A DNA stretch of 36,849 nt, from NCBI GenBank assembly GCA_030612405.1, contig JAUWNY010000002.1:1-36849 (forward strand). Reading direction: 5' to 3'. Under the pieces are notes generated by a model. The model saw nothing but the letters and a program-made list of their open reading frames with translations. It was not told where the DNA came from and made no database searches. Positions within the stretch are counted from its first letter, which is position 1, and each line of letters begins with the position of its first letter. Made by a program: the position numbers and the translations under genes. This document shows positions 2,291 to 25,329 of the stretch, piece after piece. Source of the stretch: Candidatus Methanophagales archaeon (GTDB taxonomy: Archaea; Halobacteriota; Syntropharchaeia; Alkanophagales; Methanospirareceae).

Positions 2291-3349
2291 TTATACGTAT
2301 TTCCTCTCCACCAGTACTTCGGCATTCAATATGGACGCACCCGCAGCACCTCGTACCGTATTGTGACCCTGTGCAATGTACTTCACCTCGTTCTTCATTC
2401 TTCCTGCTCTTATTCTCCCTACCGATACACTCATACCCCTCCCGGCATCACGGTCTAACCTGGGCTGCGGTCTATCCTGTTCCTCACGCAGTATTATAGG
2501 CTTCTCAGGAGCAAAAGGTGTTTTTATGTCAGTGGTGAAGTCCTTAAACGCCTTCTTAGCTTCTTCTTCAGTTATGCCTTCCTCAAACTTTACCCATATC
2601 ACCTCGGTATGACCATCCATCACCGGAACCCGATGACAAGAAGCACACACGTTGAATGCGGCGTTTTTTATTCCTGAACCTTCTTTTTCCACGGTGCCGA
2701 GAATCTTCAGCGGTTCACTTTCCATCTTATCTTCTTCACTTTCTATAAACGGTATCACGTTATCCAGAATCGCCATTGACGGCACACCTGCATATCCCGC
2801 ACCCGATACCGCCTGCATGGTTGACACCCGCACTTCTTTTATCCCGTATCTCATCAGCGGTTTCAAACTCAACGTCATGACGATGGCCGAACAGTTAGGA
2901 TTTGTTATGATGAATCCGTCCCATCCCCGCTTCTCTTTTTGCACCTCGATTAATGCTAAGTGGTCGGCGTTTATCTCAGGAATGACCAGAGGCACATCAG
3001 GCTCCATTCTATGCACCGAGACATTACTTGCCACGCAATATCCTGCCTGTGCACATCTCTTCTCTACCTCGCTTGCAACCGAGCCAGGCAAAGCAGAAAA
3101 CATAATTGCGATGTCTTCGTTCTTTGAAGTATCCACATCGTTCAGTGATTGCACTACCATCTCTGCTGCTTCCGCGGGCATCTCATAGGGAAGAAACCAC
3201 TTCGATACCTCGCGGTATTTCTTACCCGCACTTCGTTCAGAAGCAAACAGCGATTCGAGTTCAAACCAGGGGTGTCCATCCAAAAGCTGCACAAATCGCT
3301 GCCCTACGCTTCCGGTCGCACCTAATACTCCAACTTTTATTTTTTTCAT
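2291..3349 (-). CDS. asd: Aspartate-semialdehyde dehydrogenase (archaeal/fungal type)
   Basis: Reduces aspartyl-4-phosphate to aspartate 4-semialdehyde with NADPH, the branch point to threonine, methionine and lysine. The nucleotide-binding motif VGVLGATGSVGQRFVQLL begins at residue 6. The catalytic cysteine lies in NPNCSAIVMTL (Cys153), and the C-terminal domain has the conserved CHRVPVMDGHTE block. The 352-residue length is normal for the archaeal/fungal branch. The start is ATG at 3349, and an intergenic repeat ends exactly at this start codon and probably supplies the TATA box. In organisms with COG1900-type homocysteine synthesis the product is the direct carbon precursor of homocysteine, and such a gene lies 1.2 kb away (4608-6137). 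Confidence 0.96.
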   Translation of the reverse strand: MKKIKVGVLGATGSVGQRFVQLLDGHPWFELESLFASERSAGKKYREVSKWFLPYEMPAEAAEMVVQSLNDVDTSKNEDIAIMFSALPGSVASEVEKRCAQAGYCVASNVSVHRMEPDVPLVIPEINADHLALIEVQKEKRGWDGFIITNPNCSAIVMTLSLKPLMRYGIKEVRVSTMQAVSGAGYAGVPSMAILDNVIPFIESEEDKMESEPLKILGTVEKEGSGIKNAAFNVCASCHRVPVMDGHTEVIWVKFEEGITEEEAKKAFKDFTTDIKTPFAPEKPIILREEQDRPQPRLDRDAGRGMSVSVGRIRAGRMKNEVKYIAQGHNTVRGAAGASILNAEVLVERKYV

Positions 3350-3416
3350 TGTATATAAAGTATAACTTCTTTCTATTTAAGACACGGATTAACACTGATT
3401 TACGCGGATTTATTTT
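3348..3416 (-). repeat. Solo 3'-flank repeat of the GxxExxY-type element; promoter of asd
   Basis: Read on the minus strand this contains AATCCGCGTAAATC, CCGTGTCTTAAATAG and TTATACTTTATATACAAT. The same order is found next to the GxxExxY remnants at 15.0 and 23.8 kb and alone at 25.2 kb. Its final AT plus the next G forms the ATG of asd. The CTTAAATAG box (3373-3381) lies 24-32 nt before the start codon, a good TATA position for a leaderless mRNA. Confidence 0.7.
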
Positions 3417-8648: not shown

Positions 8649-8731
8649 AAACCACGAGATTACACAAGATTAACACAGAAGAGAGAAAATAAAAAGAAAA
8701 ATCCCGTGAAAATCTGTGTAATCTTGTGGTT
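8649..8731. repeat. Short element with terminal inverted repeats (AACCACRAGATTACACA)
   Basis: The left end AACCACGAGATTACACAAG and the right end CTGTGTAATCTTGTGGTT are near-perfect inverted repeats around a ~45 bp AT/A-rich core. Related copies occur at 18377-18439, about 20503-20552 and 21341-21371. It lies inside the DUF350-to-8763 gap, interrupting an otherwise gapless operon. It resembles a non-autonomous mobile element or a hairpin-forming intergenic repeat. Confidence 0.65.
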
Positions 8732-14665: not shown

Positions 14666-14702
14666 GCATGTTATTACTTTAGTGAATGTTATATTTTAAA
14701 CT

Positions 14703-15020
14703 ATGGATAAAAATTTCCATGAGGCAGTATTGAAGTTGGTAAAGCAAATACCAGAGGGTAAAGTAACAACTTATGGTGAGATAGCGAGAGAAATAACAGG
14801 TTCAGTCCATGCTGCTCGTGCTGTTGGACAGGCAGTTGCTACAAATCCGTATCCTATTGTTGTTCCTTGTCATCGTGTCGTGAGAAGCGATGGAGACATT
14901 GGAGGTTATAGTTTGGGTGTGGATAAGAAGATAAGGCTTTTGAGCGCGGAAGGAGCAGAGATAAAAGGGAGAAAGGTGTTGAATTTCGAGCAAAGGCTTT
15001 TCCTTTTCGATTGTATATAA
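14703..15020 (+). CDS. ogt: Methylated-DNA--[protein]-cysteine S-methyltransferase
   Basis: Suicide repair enzyme that removes O6-alkyl groups from guanine. The 105 residues cover only the C-terminal catalytic domain: VTTYGEIAREI, the DNA-binding helix with ARAVGQAVATNP (arginine finger), and PCHRVV with acceptor Cys56. An acceptor cysteine makes it an active enzyme type rather than an alkyltransferase-like protein. The last codons, LFDCI and the TAA stop, lie in a repeated sequence (ATTGTATATAAAG) also found at 3348, 23803 and 25156, so the present C-terminus was set by insertion of that element. Confidence 0.93.
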   Translation: MDKNFHEAVLKLVKQIPEGKVTTYGEIAREITGSVHAARAVGQAVATNPYPIVVPCHRVVRSDGDIGGYSLGVDKKIRLLSAEGAEIKGRKVLNFEQRLFLFDCI

Positions 15021-15076
15021 AGTATAACATCTACCTATTTAGGACGCAGATTTACGCGGATTTACGCAGAAAACTA
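15009..15076 (-). repeat. 3' flank of the GxxExxY-type element (copy at ogt)
   Basis: Reading on the minus strand from the GxxExxY remnant's stop: TTTTCTGCGTAAATCCGCG, TAAATCTGCGTCCTAAATAGG, TAGATGTTATACTTTATATACAAT. This matches the copy at 23803-23866 and, more loosely, 3348-3416 and 25156-25212. It overlaps the stop codon of ogt and points its TATA-like boxes antisense into ogt. Confidence 0.7.
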
Positions 15077-15264
15077 TTTCCTCAAACTATCAAATGCCTT
15101 ACGTTTAACTTCCAGTTTAGTGTCAAAATTAAATTCTATCATCCTTGCATTCTCATAAACCTTTTCCAGAAAGCCATAACCCCTTTATTATAAACTCAAT
15201 AGAAGATTCTAATAATCCCCTCCGCCAATTCCTTATATTTTAAATCCTGATTATCTGCGGTCAT
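15074..15264 (-). pseudogene. Decayed, internally deleted GxxExxY-family gene
   Basis: The minus strand begins MTADNQDLKYKELAEGIIR, IFY, then an in-frame TGA where Glu is expected. After a one-base frame change it reads GYGFLEKVYENARMIEF, containing the defining G-x-x-E-x-x-Y (GFLEKVY), and then jumps to the normal C-terminus KLEVKRKAFDSLRK and a stop. Intact relatives are about 120-130 residues, so roughly 60 residues are missing from the middle. The region from 15021 to 15348 contains only this element and its flanks. GxxExxY proteins have no established biochemical function. Confidence 0.8.
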
Positions 15265-15348
15265 CTGCGTCCGATTATCAAAAATTATTCTTTCTTGCTT
15301 TAAAAAATAAAAGAAGAGGAAGAAGTCCTCCTTATACTTTGTATTTAC

Positions 15349-16257
15349 TTATGCCGCAGTTGTAGCTGTTTGATTCATCGGTGGAAACATTGGATACTCG
15401 CCTGCACTTTCCGCCTCTTTTGGCAATTCTATCGTCACTGGCTTGTTATAGTCGTAGAAAACTATGTTGGTCCTCTGATTGCTCGTCATTGTAAATCCCG
15501 CCTCCGTTTCAGGTATGTTCAGGTCCTCCGAGCTTATCACCATTTCCATCTGCATTTCTGTCTTCATCGGGAACTTCGTATCCTTTGCAATCCAGTACTT
15601 CAGAGACATCTCCTTTATCATTTCCCCTATGTCGAAGCTATCGTTCTGTCGCAGGCTTTGCATTAGTTCGCCCAGCCCCTCTTGCTTCATCAAGATCTCC
15701 CCGTACTTTTCGGTGTCTATCGTGATATTTAGCACGTAGCAATCCACACCGTTCACCTCTTCATCCTCTAAAAGCTCCACTTCCGAAACATTCAGCAGTT
15801 CCATTTGTTGGCCTATCCGGTTCTGCGATTCCCAGTATTCTTCGGGCATTTCCGTCTTTGTCCATTGCGCTGGCATCTCTGGAATACCCCTATCCATCTT
15901 CATGTACATGGCGTTATTGATGAAATACATCTCCATCGTCATCTCCATTGTTTCCTGCGGCGCACCTTCAGGCAGTTCCATCGTCATCTCCATCTTCATC
16001 TTTTTATTTATGTTATCCACTGCACCTTTTCCAGTGCTTGTCATCGTCATCTCTGTCTCATCAGTCTCGTTGCTTATTAGCGTCTTTTGTGTCATATCCA
16101 TGTCAAACTTGTAAGTATCTGTGTTTTCAGCAGTAGCAAGGACCATCTCTTTTATTTCCGCTGTACTCATTCGCTCCTCCTCAATGCATCCTGCACACAT
16201 CGCAACCGCTACGATTGCAACTACGGCTATTAATCCTGCAATTGCTTTTCTTTTCAT
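15349..16257 (-). CDS. Secreted lipoprotein, LppX/LolA-like, methionine-rich
   Basis: A 302-residue lipoprotein: a short basic start, a hydrophobic signal (residues 5-20), and lipobox AMCAGC with lipidated Cys24. The mature domain has the alternating strand pattern of the LppX/LolA-like antiparallel sheet (TDTYKFDMDMTQKT, VNGVDCYVLNITIDT, LKYWIAKDTKFPMKTEMQME) and many Met residues in strands. Such proteins bind lipids or act as surface-layer lipoproteins in archaea; the ligand here is unknown. I chose ATG 16257 over GTG 16266 because the latter lies within the GGAGGTG ribosome site. It is monocistronic. Confidence 0.8.
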   Translation of the reverse strand: MKRKAIAGLIAVVAIVAVAMCAGCIEEERMSTAEIKEMVLATAENTDTYKFDMDMTQKTLISNETDETEMTMTSTGKGAVDNINKKMKMEMTMELPEGAPQETMEMTMEMYFINNAMYMKMDRGIPEMPAQWTKTEMPEEYWESQNRIGQQMELLNVSEVELLEDEEVNGVDCYVLNITIDTEKYGEILMKQEGLGELMQSLRQNDSFDIGEMIKEMSLKYWIAKDTKFPMKTEMQMEMVISSEDLNIPETEAGFTMTSNQRTNIVFYDYNKPVTIELPKEAESAGEYPMFPPMNQTATTAA

Positions 16258-20355: not shown

Positions 20356-20400
20356 AAATGTATAACTTCCTTCTTTTTAAGACACAGATTTACATAGATT
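20356..20400 (-). repeat. Partial 3'-flank repeat upstream of the radical SAM gene
   Basis: Minus-strand AATCTATGTAAATCTGTGTC, then CTTAAAAAGAAGGAAGTTATA, matching the asd and ATP-grasp copies but lacking the final TTTATATACAAT (here ATTTGCAACC). The TATA-like CTTAAAAAG is about 37-45 nt upstream of the ATG. Confidence 0.5.
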
Positions 20401-20446
20401 AAGCGAGTTTAGAGGTTTAGCTCGTTAGCGGCTCAGTCCCTTTGAC

Positions 20447-20490
20447 CAAAACGCTAAACCACCAAACCGCTAAACCGCTAAACCGCTATA
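20447..20490. repeat. AAACCGCT octamer tandem repeat
   Basis: CCAAAACGCTAAACCACC is followed by three perfect AAACCGCT units. Related AGCGG/CCGCTA strings are at 20406-20432, 22735-22790 and 18090-18130. It is non-coding. The 20337-20568 gap otherwise holds the flank repeat and CTGTGTTAATCTGTGTAATC / GTTAATCTCGTGGTTT (20509-20552), an inverted-repeat-element relic. Confidence 0.6.
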
Positions 20491-20568
20491 TTATCATCTG
20501 TGTTAATCTGTGTAATCTGTGGTTAATATTTTTTCATGTTAATCTCGTGGTTTATTAATTGCAATTTG

Positions 20569-21306: not shown

Positions 21307-21340
21307 GGTTCTATAATTATAGTCATTCCGAAAATAATTA

Positions 21341-21371
21341 ACCACAAGATTACACAGATTTTCACAAGATT
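21341..21371. repeat. Half copy of the AACCACAAGATTACACAG element
   Basis: AACCACAAGATTACACAGATT, then TTCACAAGATTATT, in the divergent gap between the HisA-like gene and hisS. Only the left end is present. The next bases form the hisS TATA box. Confidence 0.55.
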
Positions 21372-21381
21372 ATTTATAAAA
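21371..21381 (+). promoter_or_regulatory. TATA box of hisS
   Basis: TATTTATAAAAC ends about 27 nt before the ATG at 21408, giving a leaderless or nearly leaderless transcript. No Shine-Dalgarno sequence is present at the correct distance. Confidence 0.55.
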
Positions 21382-23802: not shown

Positions 23803-23866
23803 GTATATTAAAGTATAACTTCTACCTATTTAGGACGCAGATTTAGCGGATTTACGCAGAAAACTA
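23803..23866 (-). repeat. 3' flank of the GxxExxY-type element (copy upstream of purM)
   Basis: Minus strand: TTTTCTGCGTAAATCCGCTAA, ATCTGCGTCCTAAATAGGTAG, AAGTTATACTTTAATATACC. It is almost identical to 15009-15076 and points towards purM. Confidence 0.7.
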
Positions 23867-23923
23867 TTTCCTCAAATTATCAAATGCCTTACGTTTTTTA
23901 AAATCCTGATTATCTGCGTTCAT
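23864..23923 (-). pseudogene. Minimal GxxExxY remnant (19 codons)
   Basis: It reads MNADNQDFKKRKAFDNLRK and a stop. The first seven residues equal the start of the GxxExxY remnant at 15074-15264 (MTADNQDL), and the last nine equal its end (KRKAFDSLRK). The complete middle is deleted in frame. Both flanks are kept: the 5' flank (CAAGAAAGAATAATTTTTGA then AATCGGACGCAG) overlaps the stop of the ATP-grasp gene. It is probably not a functional peptide. Confidence 0.75.
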
Positions 23924-23943
23924 CTGCGTCCGATTTTCAAAAA

Positions 23944-25122
23944 TTATTCTTTCTTGTGTCTCACACACGCTTTTATACGCTCGACATTGCTCATCGCTTC
24001 AGCAACCGCTTCTTCTCTACTATCGCCAATCCCTATTCCCGTGGCAATGGGTTCTCCCTGCTTTACAATTCTGCCTTTTTCCGGAATGTCCACTATTCCT
24101 TGCACATCCCTATCTAAATTTCCCATCACTACCCCTTCTTGTCTTGCAAACACAATCGTTTTTGCAGCATATCTTTTCGCTTCCACTTGTTCTACGAGTA
24201 AATCCCCTCTTACCGCTTTCATAGACGCATCAACTAAATTCAAATTTAGACCTGTGGAAAGCTCAACAGTGTCCAGGCTTCCTTGAAACCGTGGGTTCAC
24301 TTCTATTACGAAAGGTACATCGTCAGTAACAACAAAATCAATCCCGTTAGAGCCTACCAGCCCTAATTCAGTCGTTAAGAACTCGGCAATTTCACACATC
24401 TGCTCTGAAGATTTTGTTACAAACGGGGAGATGTTCCCGCAGTAGGCAAAGGGTCCGGGAGCGTAAACCGAATCCAGACCTATCAACTGCTCATTCACGG
24501 ATACCGAAATCGCCTCATGCTCGGTTGAAATGAGCGATACAGAGGCATGCGTTCCATTTATGTATTCCTGGAATAAGAAATCAGGAAAAAGTTTAGCCCA
24601 GTGAATCAACCCCTTTTCATCAATACAAAAGAAATTAGCCGTTCCCCCACCGCCATAAACGGGTTTTGCCACCACGGGATAGTGAAAGTCTTTCAGTTTC
24701 GCTTTTTCTTCCCATTCTCCTTCTCCTTCCGCTATTTCTCTGCCCGTATAGCTAAGAGGATGCGGGATACCTAAATCGTCTAATCGCGATGAAAGCCATG
24801 CTTTATTCGATACTTCTCTCGTCTTCTCCGGTGTGTTCCCCACTATCTTTTTCCTATCCTTAACAGTTAAGAACCCGAAATCCGCACTCTCAAACCCTGA
24901 GCCTATAATTATACCGTCAGCTTCTTCTACCTCCGCTTTAAGGTGTTTGACGTCAGCGTGAAGCTGAAGCGGATTCAGAGGGAAATATCTGGTGGCACAT
25001 CTCCTCGTATCTATATCGCCAAAAGCATCGGCAGCATACATCTCATAGCCCGCCCTGCTGCCGGAACATACGATATGCCTGACGGAATATCCGATTGCCA
25101 ATATTTTTCTTGTTTGGTGCAT
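23944..25122 (-). CDS. ATP-grasp family ligase (COG2232-like)
   Basis: A 392-residue ATP-grasp enzyme: an N-terminal pre-ATP-grasp Rossmann part (residues 1 to about 110, ILAIGYSVRHIV...ADGIIIGSGFE), then the nucleotide loop VVAKPVYGGGGTANFF, the hinge FLFQEYINGTHASVS, and metal ligands GSNGIDFVVTDDVPFVIEVNPRFQGSLD. A C-terminal biotin-carboxylase-like region follows. Such enzymes join a carboxylate to an amine or thiol through an acylphosphate. It resembles the archaeal COG2232 group, possibly tied to cofactor synthesis; the substrate is unknown. The last codons KKE and the TAA are part of a repeated element shared with 15280-15300. Confidence 0.8.
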   Translation of the reverse strand: MHQTRKILAIGYSVRHIVCSGSRAGYEMYAADAFGDIDTRRCATRYFPLNPLQLHADVKHLKAEVEEADGIIIGSGFESADFGFLTVKDRKKIVGNTPEKTREVSNKAWLSSRLDDLGIPHPLSYTGREIAEGEGEWEEKAKLKDFHYPVVAKPVYGGGGTANFFCIDEKGLIHWAKLFPDFLFQEYINGTHASVSLISTEHEAISVSVNEQLIGLDSVYAPGPFAYCGNISPFVTKSSEQMCEIAEFLTTELGLVGSNGIDFVVTDDVPFVIEVNPRFQGSLDTVELSTGLNLNLVDASMKAVRGDLLVEQVEAKRYAAKTIVFARQEGVVMGNLDRDVQGIVDIPEKGRIVKQGEPIATGIGIGDSREEAVAEAMSNVERIKACVRHKKE

Positions 25123-25155: not shown

Positions 25156-25212
25156 ATTGTATATAAAGTATAACTTCCTTCTATTTGAGACACGGATTTA
25201 CACGGACTTATT
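25156..25212 (-). repeat. Solo 3'-flank repeat upstream of the ATP-grasp gene
   Basis: Minus strand: AAGTCCGTGTAAATCCGTGTC, TCAAATAGAAGGAAGTTATAC, TTTATATACAATTAAAAAAAG. It carries the same TATACTTTATATACAAT end as the asd copy. The TTTATATA box is about 36-45 nt before the ATG at 25122. Confidence 0.65.
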
Positions 25213-25251
25213 TTAATTTAACATTGTTGATTTTTATCATCTGTGTTAATT

Positions 25252-25287
25252 AAGCCCTTTCTTGGCTTGCGGAGACGTGGGCAGAGC
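25252..25287. repeat. Two tight hairpins inserted in a repeat relic
   Basis: AAGCC-CTTTCTT-GGCTT is followed by CGTGGGC-AGA-GCCCACG, a perfect 7-bp stem with a 3-nt loop. These interrupt a GTGTTAAT...CGTTAATCTGTG repeat relic. The same hairpin style and the word GGCTTGCGG recur at 33406-33490. Confidence 0.6.
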
Positions 25288-25329
25288 CCACGAGCGTTAA
25301 TCTGTGTCAACGATTTATTTTCTTGTGAA

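Follow-up and report, generated by a model that had tools for sequence, protein, structure and literature searches.

The window analyzed here, a stretch of 36,849 nucleotides of archaeal DNA, contains between two convergent genes a short intergenic region in which a 287-bp element carries the remains of a GxxExxY gene on its minus strand (Table 1). When the minus strand is read from 15264 down to 15074, one frame gives MTADNQDLKYKELAEGIIRIFY followed by a stop and another gives GFLEKVYENARMIEF...KRKAFDSLRK followed by a stop. The initial annotation had proposed at this place a GxxExxY gene with one stop, one frameshift and a missing middle, and both translation and alignment to L050, the intact element of a sister species, confirmed it. 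All 287 bases of the window copy align to L050, 268 of them identical (93%), with a score of 406, compared with at most 53 in 200 shuffles; relative to L050, the window copy has lost 204 bp internally (15128/15129) and 1 bp at 15182/15183 and has gained an in-frame stop. L050 itself is 490 bp long, and GxxExxY is its sole gene. The TIGR04256 profile matched the window remnant in one piece only (E = 0.1), a Pfam search with the remnant protein gave no match, and an Rfam search of the window gave no match to a known RNA family. The archaeal host assembly (2.23 Mb, 85% complete) carries two other GxxExxY genes, both intact.

The initial annotation had also described an intergenic element with conserved flanks. 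The flanking repeats are real, as ACGCAGATTTACGC occurs with up to two mismatches at 379 sites in the genome, compared with 9 for the reversed control, but we corrected the bounds to 15011–15297, because the conserved termini reach approximately 30 bp beyond the left array and 25 bp beyond the right. Likewise, the sequences given as separate 5′ and 3′ flanks are conserved but not unrelated to each other, since both are inverted copies of one array of approximately three heptamers (CRCRRAG/T). An alkyltransferase-like gene (14703–15020) has had its final codons changed by the insertion, and its stop codon now lies within the element.

Table 1. Positions of the GxxExxY-related elements and their parts in the window
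Feature	Position	Strand	Description
Whole element	15011–15297	−	287 bp, non-autonomous, internally deleted GxxExxY unit; ends aligned across copies; five relatives have the empty site; 93% identical to the intact copy L050
Left terminus (LE), TTGTATATAAAGTATAAC..CTACCTATTTA	15011–15041	+	Beyond the array, at the gene's 3′ end; conserved among the 50 copies aligned
Left array, GG ACGCAGATTT ACGCGGATTT ACGCAG	15042–15069	+	10-bp period, inward-pointing
GxxExxY (TIGR04256/PF13366) gene remnant	15074–15264	−	N- and C-terminal codons retained; in-frame stop, 1-bp and 204-bp deletions
Join of the 204-bp internal deletion	15128–15129		Common to copies in other genera
Right array, GGACGCAGATGACCGCAGAT (minus strand)	15253–15272	−	Opposite in orientation to the left array; extends over the gene start
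Right terminus (RE), GATTATCAAAAATTATTCTTTCTTG	15273–15297	+	Alignment of multiple copies
Second copy, same element family	23803–23956	−	Larger, independent internal deletion; both gene ends kept
Third related element	25157–25326		Same left terminus, ACACGGATTTAC-type arrays, variant right end TTTATTTTCTTG
Gene-less hairpin, CACAAGATT subtype	8651–8731		z = −6.5; subtype flanks intact gene L001 elsewhere in the genome

Arrays and hairpins of this and related subtypes also occur elsewhere within these 37 kb, at 3349–3413, 20363–20524 and 21340–21372. A short repeat, AAGCCCTTTC..GGCTTGCGGAGACGTGGGCAGAGCCC, is nested in array elements of the archaeal family (25242–25292 in the window, and L040 and L116).

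Ends, empty sites and copies of the archaeal element

A search of relatives with positions 14700–15700 found both flanks directly adjoining in five genomes (G002, G003, G004, G005 and G017), and many further copies aligned over one fixed stretch. The sequence of the empty site is CCTTTTTGATTTTAAAAAATAAAAG and that of the window is CCTTTTCGA, with the element running from TTGTATATAAAG to TTCTTTCTTG and followed by CTTTAAAAAATAAAAG; apart from one C/T difference, the empty sites are exact to the base. The same termini are conserved across fifty aligned copies, and LE, at up to three mismatches, is present in 9–36 copies per genome of the genus, compared with no control matches. The copies L089 and L117 also have exact empty sites, and thus the pairs of empty and occupied sites that the initial annotation had sought in close relatives exist. 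Since the same unit is found at different sites with empty counterparts in relatives, it behaves as a mobile element. For the gene-bearing copies, sites in sister genomes are unoccupied but altered, as at the L050 site, which is unoccupied in G005 yet has a small deletion beside it.

The left flanks are T-rich, with 89–97% T at the last two positions. Among 36 copies, matching flank k-mers were not in excess at any fixed length and gave no signal of target-site duplication at 2–4 bp, with 3 of the 36 matching at 5 bp under one choice of boundary. The three exact empty sites fit a duplication of 0 bp, or of 2 bp (TT) if the TT is counted as target; with the terminal TT assigned to the element, these sites are consistent with no duplication. 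Insertion of the window element was exact, without a detected target duplication. Subterminal hairpins of the IS605 type are absent from both ends (folding z = −0.36 for LE and +1.17 for RE).

The intact copies L050 and L057 have the same termini as the window copy. L069 (G023) and L070 (G015), which occupy different sites in two further genera, have the same deletion join as the window copy, and at least ten copies close to the window copy in length are present in G023. Other copies also have shorter interiors, most copies being 128–300 bp long compared with 490 bp for the intact unit, some are nested within related units, and at the L117 site just the two termini remain in one relative (L253). 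The deleted form has thus been amplified at new sites. As the deletion is common to other sites and genera, the window copy is a multi-copy, MITE-like, amplified non-autonomous form of the GxxExxY unit and not a gene decaying in place. Decay where the gene stands, without mobilization in trans, would account for the stop and the 1-bp deletion, which are what a decaying gene accumulates; we rejected it on the evidence of the join common to L069 and L070 and the copies in G023, and consider it very improbable.

Inverted heptamer arrays and the proteins between them

Eighty named loci from genome collections and nineteen from a search of the phylum, combined with those of close relatives, provided 114 GxxExxY genes whose flanks could be used. 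The named loci cover about 15 phyla of archaea and bacteria. The arrays have a consensus of approximately three heptamers, CRCNRAG/T, 8–11 bp apart, often led by AAC or CAC, and point inward on both sides. At least two inward heptamers on both sides were present at 60 of the 114 loci, which, as loci were selected by protein similarity, is a fraction of the sampled loci rather than of the whole family; the reversed sequence gave 7, and other ORFs of the same loci 0 of 183. When each 5′ flank was compared with its reverse-complemented 3′ partner, 60% scored at least 32, compared with 5% for swapped partners and 0% for reversed sequences. By eye, most of the 16 loci that satisfied no formal criterion have arrays, mainly of the CACAAGATT subtype, and L051 and L160 seem to have none. 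Intact GxxExxY genes therefore do share flanks, as had been predicted, in the form of inverted heptamer arrays, and the proposed tie between ACGCAGATTAACGCAG-type intergenic repeats and the ends of GxxExxY units holds and extends far beyond this genome.

The two ends of a unit agree in array subtype (position 2 in 59 of 60 units and position 5 in 56 of 60). Array subtype also tracks the protein tree more closely than randomized labels do, with none of 300 shuffles as low for positions 2 and 4–7 and a weaker signal at position 5 (p = 0.04), a test in which locus relatedness is a partial confounder. The complete archaeal genome G047 carries three gene-bearing copies (L275, L276 and L278) at different sites, which have 752–777 bp in common at 90–96% identity, break off at inverted repeats of approximately 145 bp (GTTATGC...GCATAAC) and encode only GxxExxY; these recently amplified units of approximately 785 bp are a clean model element. 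GxxExxY was found in 8 plasmid records, and a search of phage sequences gave no match.

Intact relatives score 134–160 bits against TIGR04256/PF13366 (PDDEXK_3), for which the cut-off is 35, and thus belong to the family. A model built from a 69-sequence alignment (pLDDT 96.6) is a bare PD-(D/E)XK core in which the catalytic D..ExK..QxxxY is conserved, D68 and E78 being invariant and K80 present in at least 90%. The best matches among solved structures, with modest scores, are the Cas4 protein SSO0001 (4ic1), lambda exonuclease and LHK-Exo. Pfam gave a weak Cas_Cas4 match for GxxExxY, and a sequence search for solved relatives found none. From these comparisons, we confidently predict that GxxExxY is a PD-(D/E)XK nuclease with a core like that of Cas4 and lambda exonuclease. 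Values of dN/dS among copies are 0.04–0.29, indicating purifying selection. Among 1040 neighboring ORFs, no partner gene recurs beyond syntenic housekeeping genes, none being present in more than 5 loci, and the intact units L050, L057, L275, L276 and L278 encode GxxExxY only and no known transposase.

The same architecture surrounds a second, unrelated protein family. In the same bacterial genomes, 20 of 28 loci of four-helix-bundle IVP genes (PF05635, 23S_rRNA_IVP) lie between inverted arrays, compared with 2% when partners are swapped. The arrays at these loci (L343–L372) consist of other 7–8-mers, including GGTGATG, GGTGACAG, AATTGTTG, TACTAAG and GGATTGA. Since IVP genes have this layout, the architecture needs no nuclease.

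Array-bearing hairpins without a gene

Arrays are also dispersed without a gene, as in 16 of the 20 genomes behind the named loci, where control matches are almost absent. These gene-less hairpins of 60–80 bp far outnumber the genes. In an Anaerolineae genome, the gene-less units are 59–66-bp hairpins with unique flanks that fold very stably (z = −8.9), and the gene-bearing unit shares their ends. When 394 genomes of the phylum were classed by the presence of at least three triple arrays and of a strong GxxExxY hit, 33 had both, 25 arrays only, 12 the gene only and 324 neither (Fisher p = 1.7e-22, not corrected for phylogeny); outside the window's family, the association has p = 3e-13, likewise uncorrected. 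The 25 array-bearing genomes without a strong hit, of 58 in all, include several that are incomplete. One genus of the phylum (G104, G173, G266, G280, G352 and G364) has highly uniform triple arrays of CGCGAAG, with as many as 101 in one genome, and includes species where the GxxExxY gene was not detected.

At orthologous intergenic sites in sister Anaerolineae (Chloroflexota), hairpins of different types replace one another. The families at these sites (L296–L342, in G395, G414, G415, G416, G396 and G421) are CGCAGAG, CGCAAAG, CACAGAG, AATTACC, AAATCCG and GGACGC...TGATTTTCCTGAT, a pattern suggestive of competition between several hairpin elements for shared sites. Random insertion would explain such replacement, but hot spots or domesticated hairpins would explain it equally well. 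The search for a clean empty site of the gene-bearing Anaerolineae unit found none; one sister keeps a remnant of the right arm and another has a different hairpin. The IVP arrays and this replacement are the strongest evidence against movement by the nuclease; given both, the arrays may be a general mobile determinant, for which different small proteins serve as helpers or passengers.

Proposed mobilization of the units and comparison with known elements

How might the units move? In the reading that we favor, to which we assign a probability of roughly 0.55, the window copy is a deleted, non-autonomous copy of an element that in full consists of GxxExxY between inverted arrays and subtype-specific termini, and the nuclease moves the units. 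Full-length units would supply the nuclease, and any DNA between matching arrays, down to the bare 60–80-bp hairpin, would be movable in trans. Multimers of GxxExxY could bind the helically spaced heptamers of both inverted arrays and cut or trim the unit ends, possibly with an extruded hairpin or a single strand as substrate; once released, the unit would join an AT-rich target without duplicating it. The initial annotation had suggested that GxxExxY genes travel as small mobile units; mobility itself stands for the archaeal family, whereas we infer that the protein may be the mover, that it recognizes the arrays and takes part in cutting, and that a DNA intermediate is formed. More broadly, we tentatively suggest that GxxExxY units could form a new autonomous class of selfish element, in which a lone minimal nuclease recognizes arrays and mobilizes its own gene together with CRCAGAG-type hairpins in bacteria and archaea, and which would join the IVP units in an "array-hairpin" superclass without a known transposase.

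A less probable but serious alternative is that the inverted arrays are the mobile part, moved in trans by an HUH/Y1 transposase or by host replication or repair at hairpins, and that GxxExxY, like IVP, is an accessory or a passenger. The IVP loci keep this explanation alive, since two unrelated protein families have the same architecture, and it would account for the great excess of bare hairpins over genes and for the arrays in 25 genomes without a detectable gene. Y1_Tnp sequences are present in all six genomes of the genus, mostly as fragments, and the lack of target duplication and the orientation of the T-rich target recall IS200/IS605. The fold relatives of GxxExxY are end-processing exonucleases rather than transposases, and the modeled structure has no separate DNA-binding domain, both of which count against the nuclease as the mover, and an intermediate of transposition was not observed. 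However, the loci of the longest Y1 genes (L279 and L280) have neither element end, neither element end folds by itself into a stable single-strand hairpin, the gene is tightly linked to the arrays, whose subtype tracks the protein tree, and purifying selection on the nuclease among copies would be unusual for a dead passenger. A Y1 transposase inside the unit was also considered and rejected: the two long-Y1 loci lack matching ends, and at two loci where the gene is a fragment, a left end is close by but no convincing right end was found around the gene.

The location of copies in short intergenic regions behind T-rich gene ends, the window copy lying between convergent genes, would also suit arrays that are host elements, such as terminators or hairpins for nucleoid structure or mRNA stability, kept for their function while GxxExxY landed between them and local turnover produced the variation. 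The orthologous Anaerolineae sites that bear hairpins in several species fit such a role. We regard it as improbable in view of the exact empty sites in close relatives, the termini and internal remnants common to unrelated sites, the nesting of one unit in another and the 93% identity of the window copy to an intact gene-bearing unit elsewhere.

The units resemble several known systems in part. REP/RAYT systems, or REPtrons, have a small gene flanked by inverted short palindromic repeats and many gene-less intergenic hairpins, spread in trans by the single-copy gene. The layout of GxxExxY units is alike, with palindromic repeats both around the gene and dispersed without it. However, the protein here is a predicted PD-(D/E)XK nuclease (PDDEXK_3) and RAYT an HUH (Y1) transposase, each arm here is an array of approximately three heptamers, and full GxxExxY units are themselves multi-copy, with empty sites. 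No HUH/Y1 gene lies between the repeats, and these ends do not enclose the Y1_Tnp loci found in the genus. REP families are among the subjects of PMC3733652. Prokaryotic MITEs are 60–400 bp long, have inverted ends, arise by internal deletion of a parent and are moved in trans (PMC10969869). The gene-less and deleted units resemble IS-derived MITEs in size, ends and internal deletion and would do so in being moved in trans, but a known transposase is missing from their parent, target-site duplication was not detected, and in the window's family the inverted part is an array that lies inside asymmetric termini.

Elements of the IS200/IS605 group and their palindrome-associated derivatives likewise have asymmetric ends and enter an oriented, AT-rich target without duplication, but here LE and RE have no subterminal hairpin and the unit has no Y1 transposase. 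Intervening sequences of 23S rRNA are small, have complementary ends and one small conserved S23p/IVP ORF, and are thought to be mobile by an unknown mechanism (PMC4990558); GxxExxY units are alike in size, ends and single small ORF and differ in protein and location, yet the IVP genes that we found outside rRNA also lie between inverted heptamer arrays. Cas4, lambda exonuclease and RecB-type proteins have the same PD-(D/E)XK core and D..ExK..QxxxY, whereas GxxExxY is a minimal 125-aa core, alone between arrays and outside any CRISPR or recombination operon. None of the families compared fits GxxExxY units in full, as RAYT and IS605 fail on the enzyme and the end hairpins, DDE MITEs on the duplication and the parent enzyme, and intervening sequences on protein and location. 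By its enzyme and end structure, the GxxExxY unit is new with respect to the open-access literature, though it works like a known kind (REPtron/MITE).

These units give an origin for intergenic repeats of very many prokaryotic genomes, of the CACAGAG, CGCAGAG, CACAAAG, CGCCAAG and ACGCAGATT types, and place a nuclease family whose function is unknown in a biological context. Should the nuclease prove to be the mover, it would represent a kind of transposition enzyme that searchable papers do not describe, and one smaller than every common transposase. Sequence-specific recognition could readily be tested through the link between array subtype and protein clade. Since units are present in culturable bacteria, such as Bacteroides finegoldii, where one lies between radA and the next gene, and also Bernardetia, laboratory experiments can decide the question. 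Searches of the open-access literature for the repeats, the family names, MITEs and intervening sequences yielded no report of either GxxExxY units or these repeats, an earlier description elsewhere being possible, and the open-access papers that mention GxxExxY never describe it as a mobile unit. One 16-mer occurs in the literature by accident, in a Bacteroides fragilis primer.
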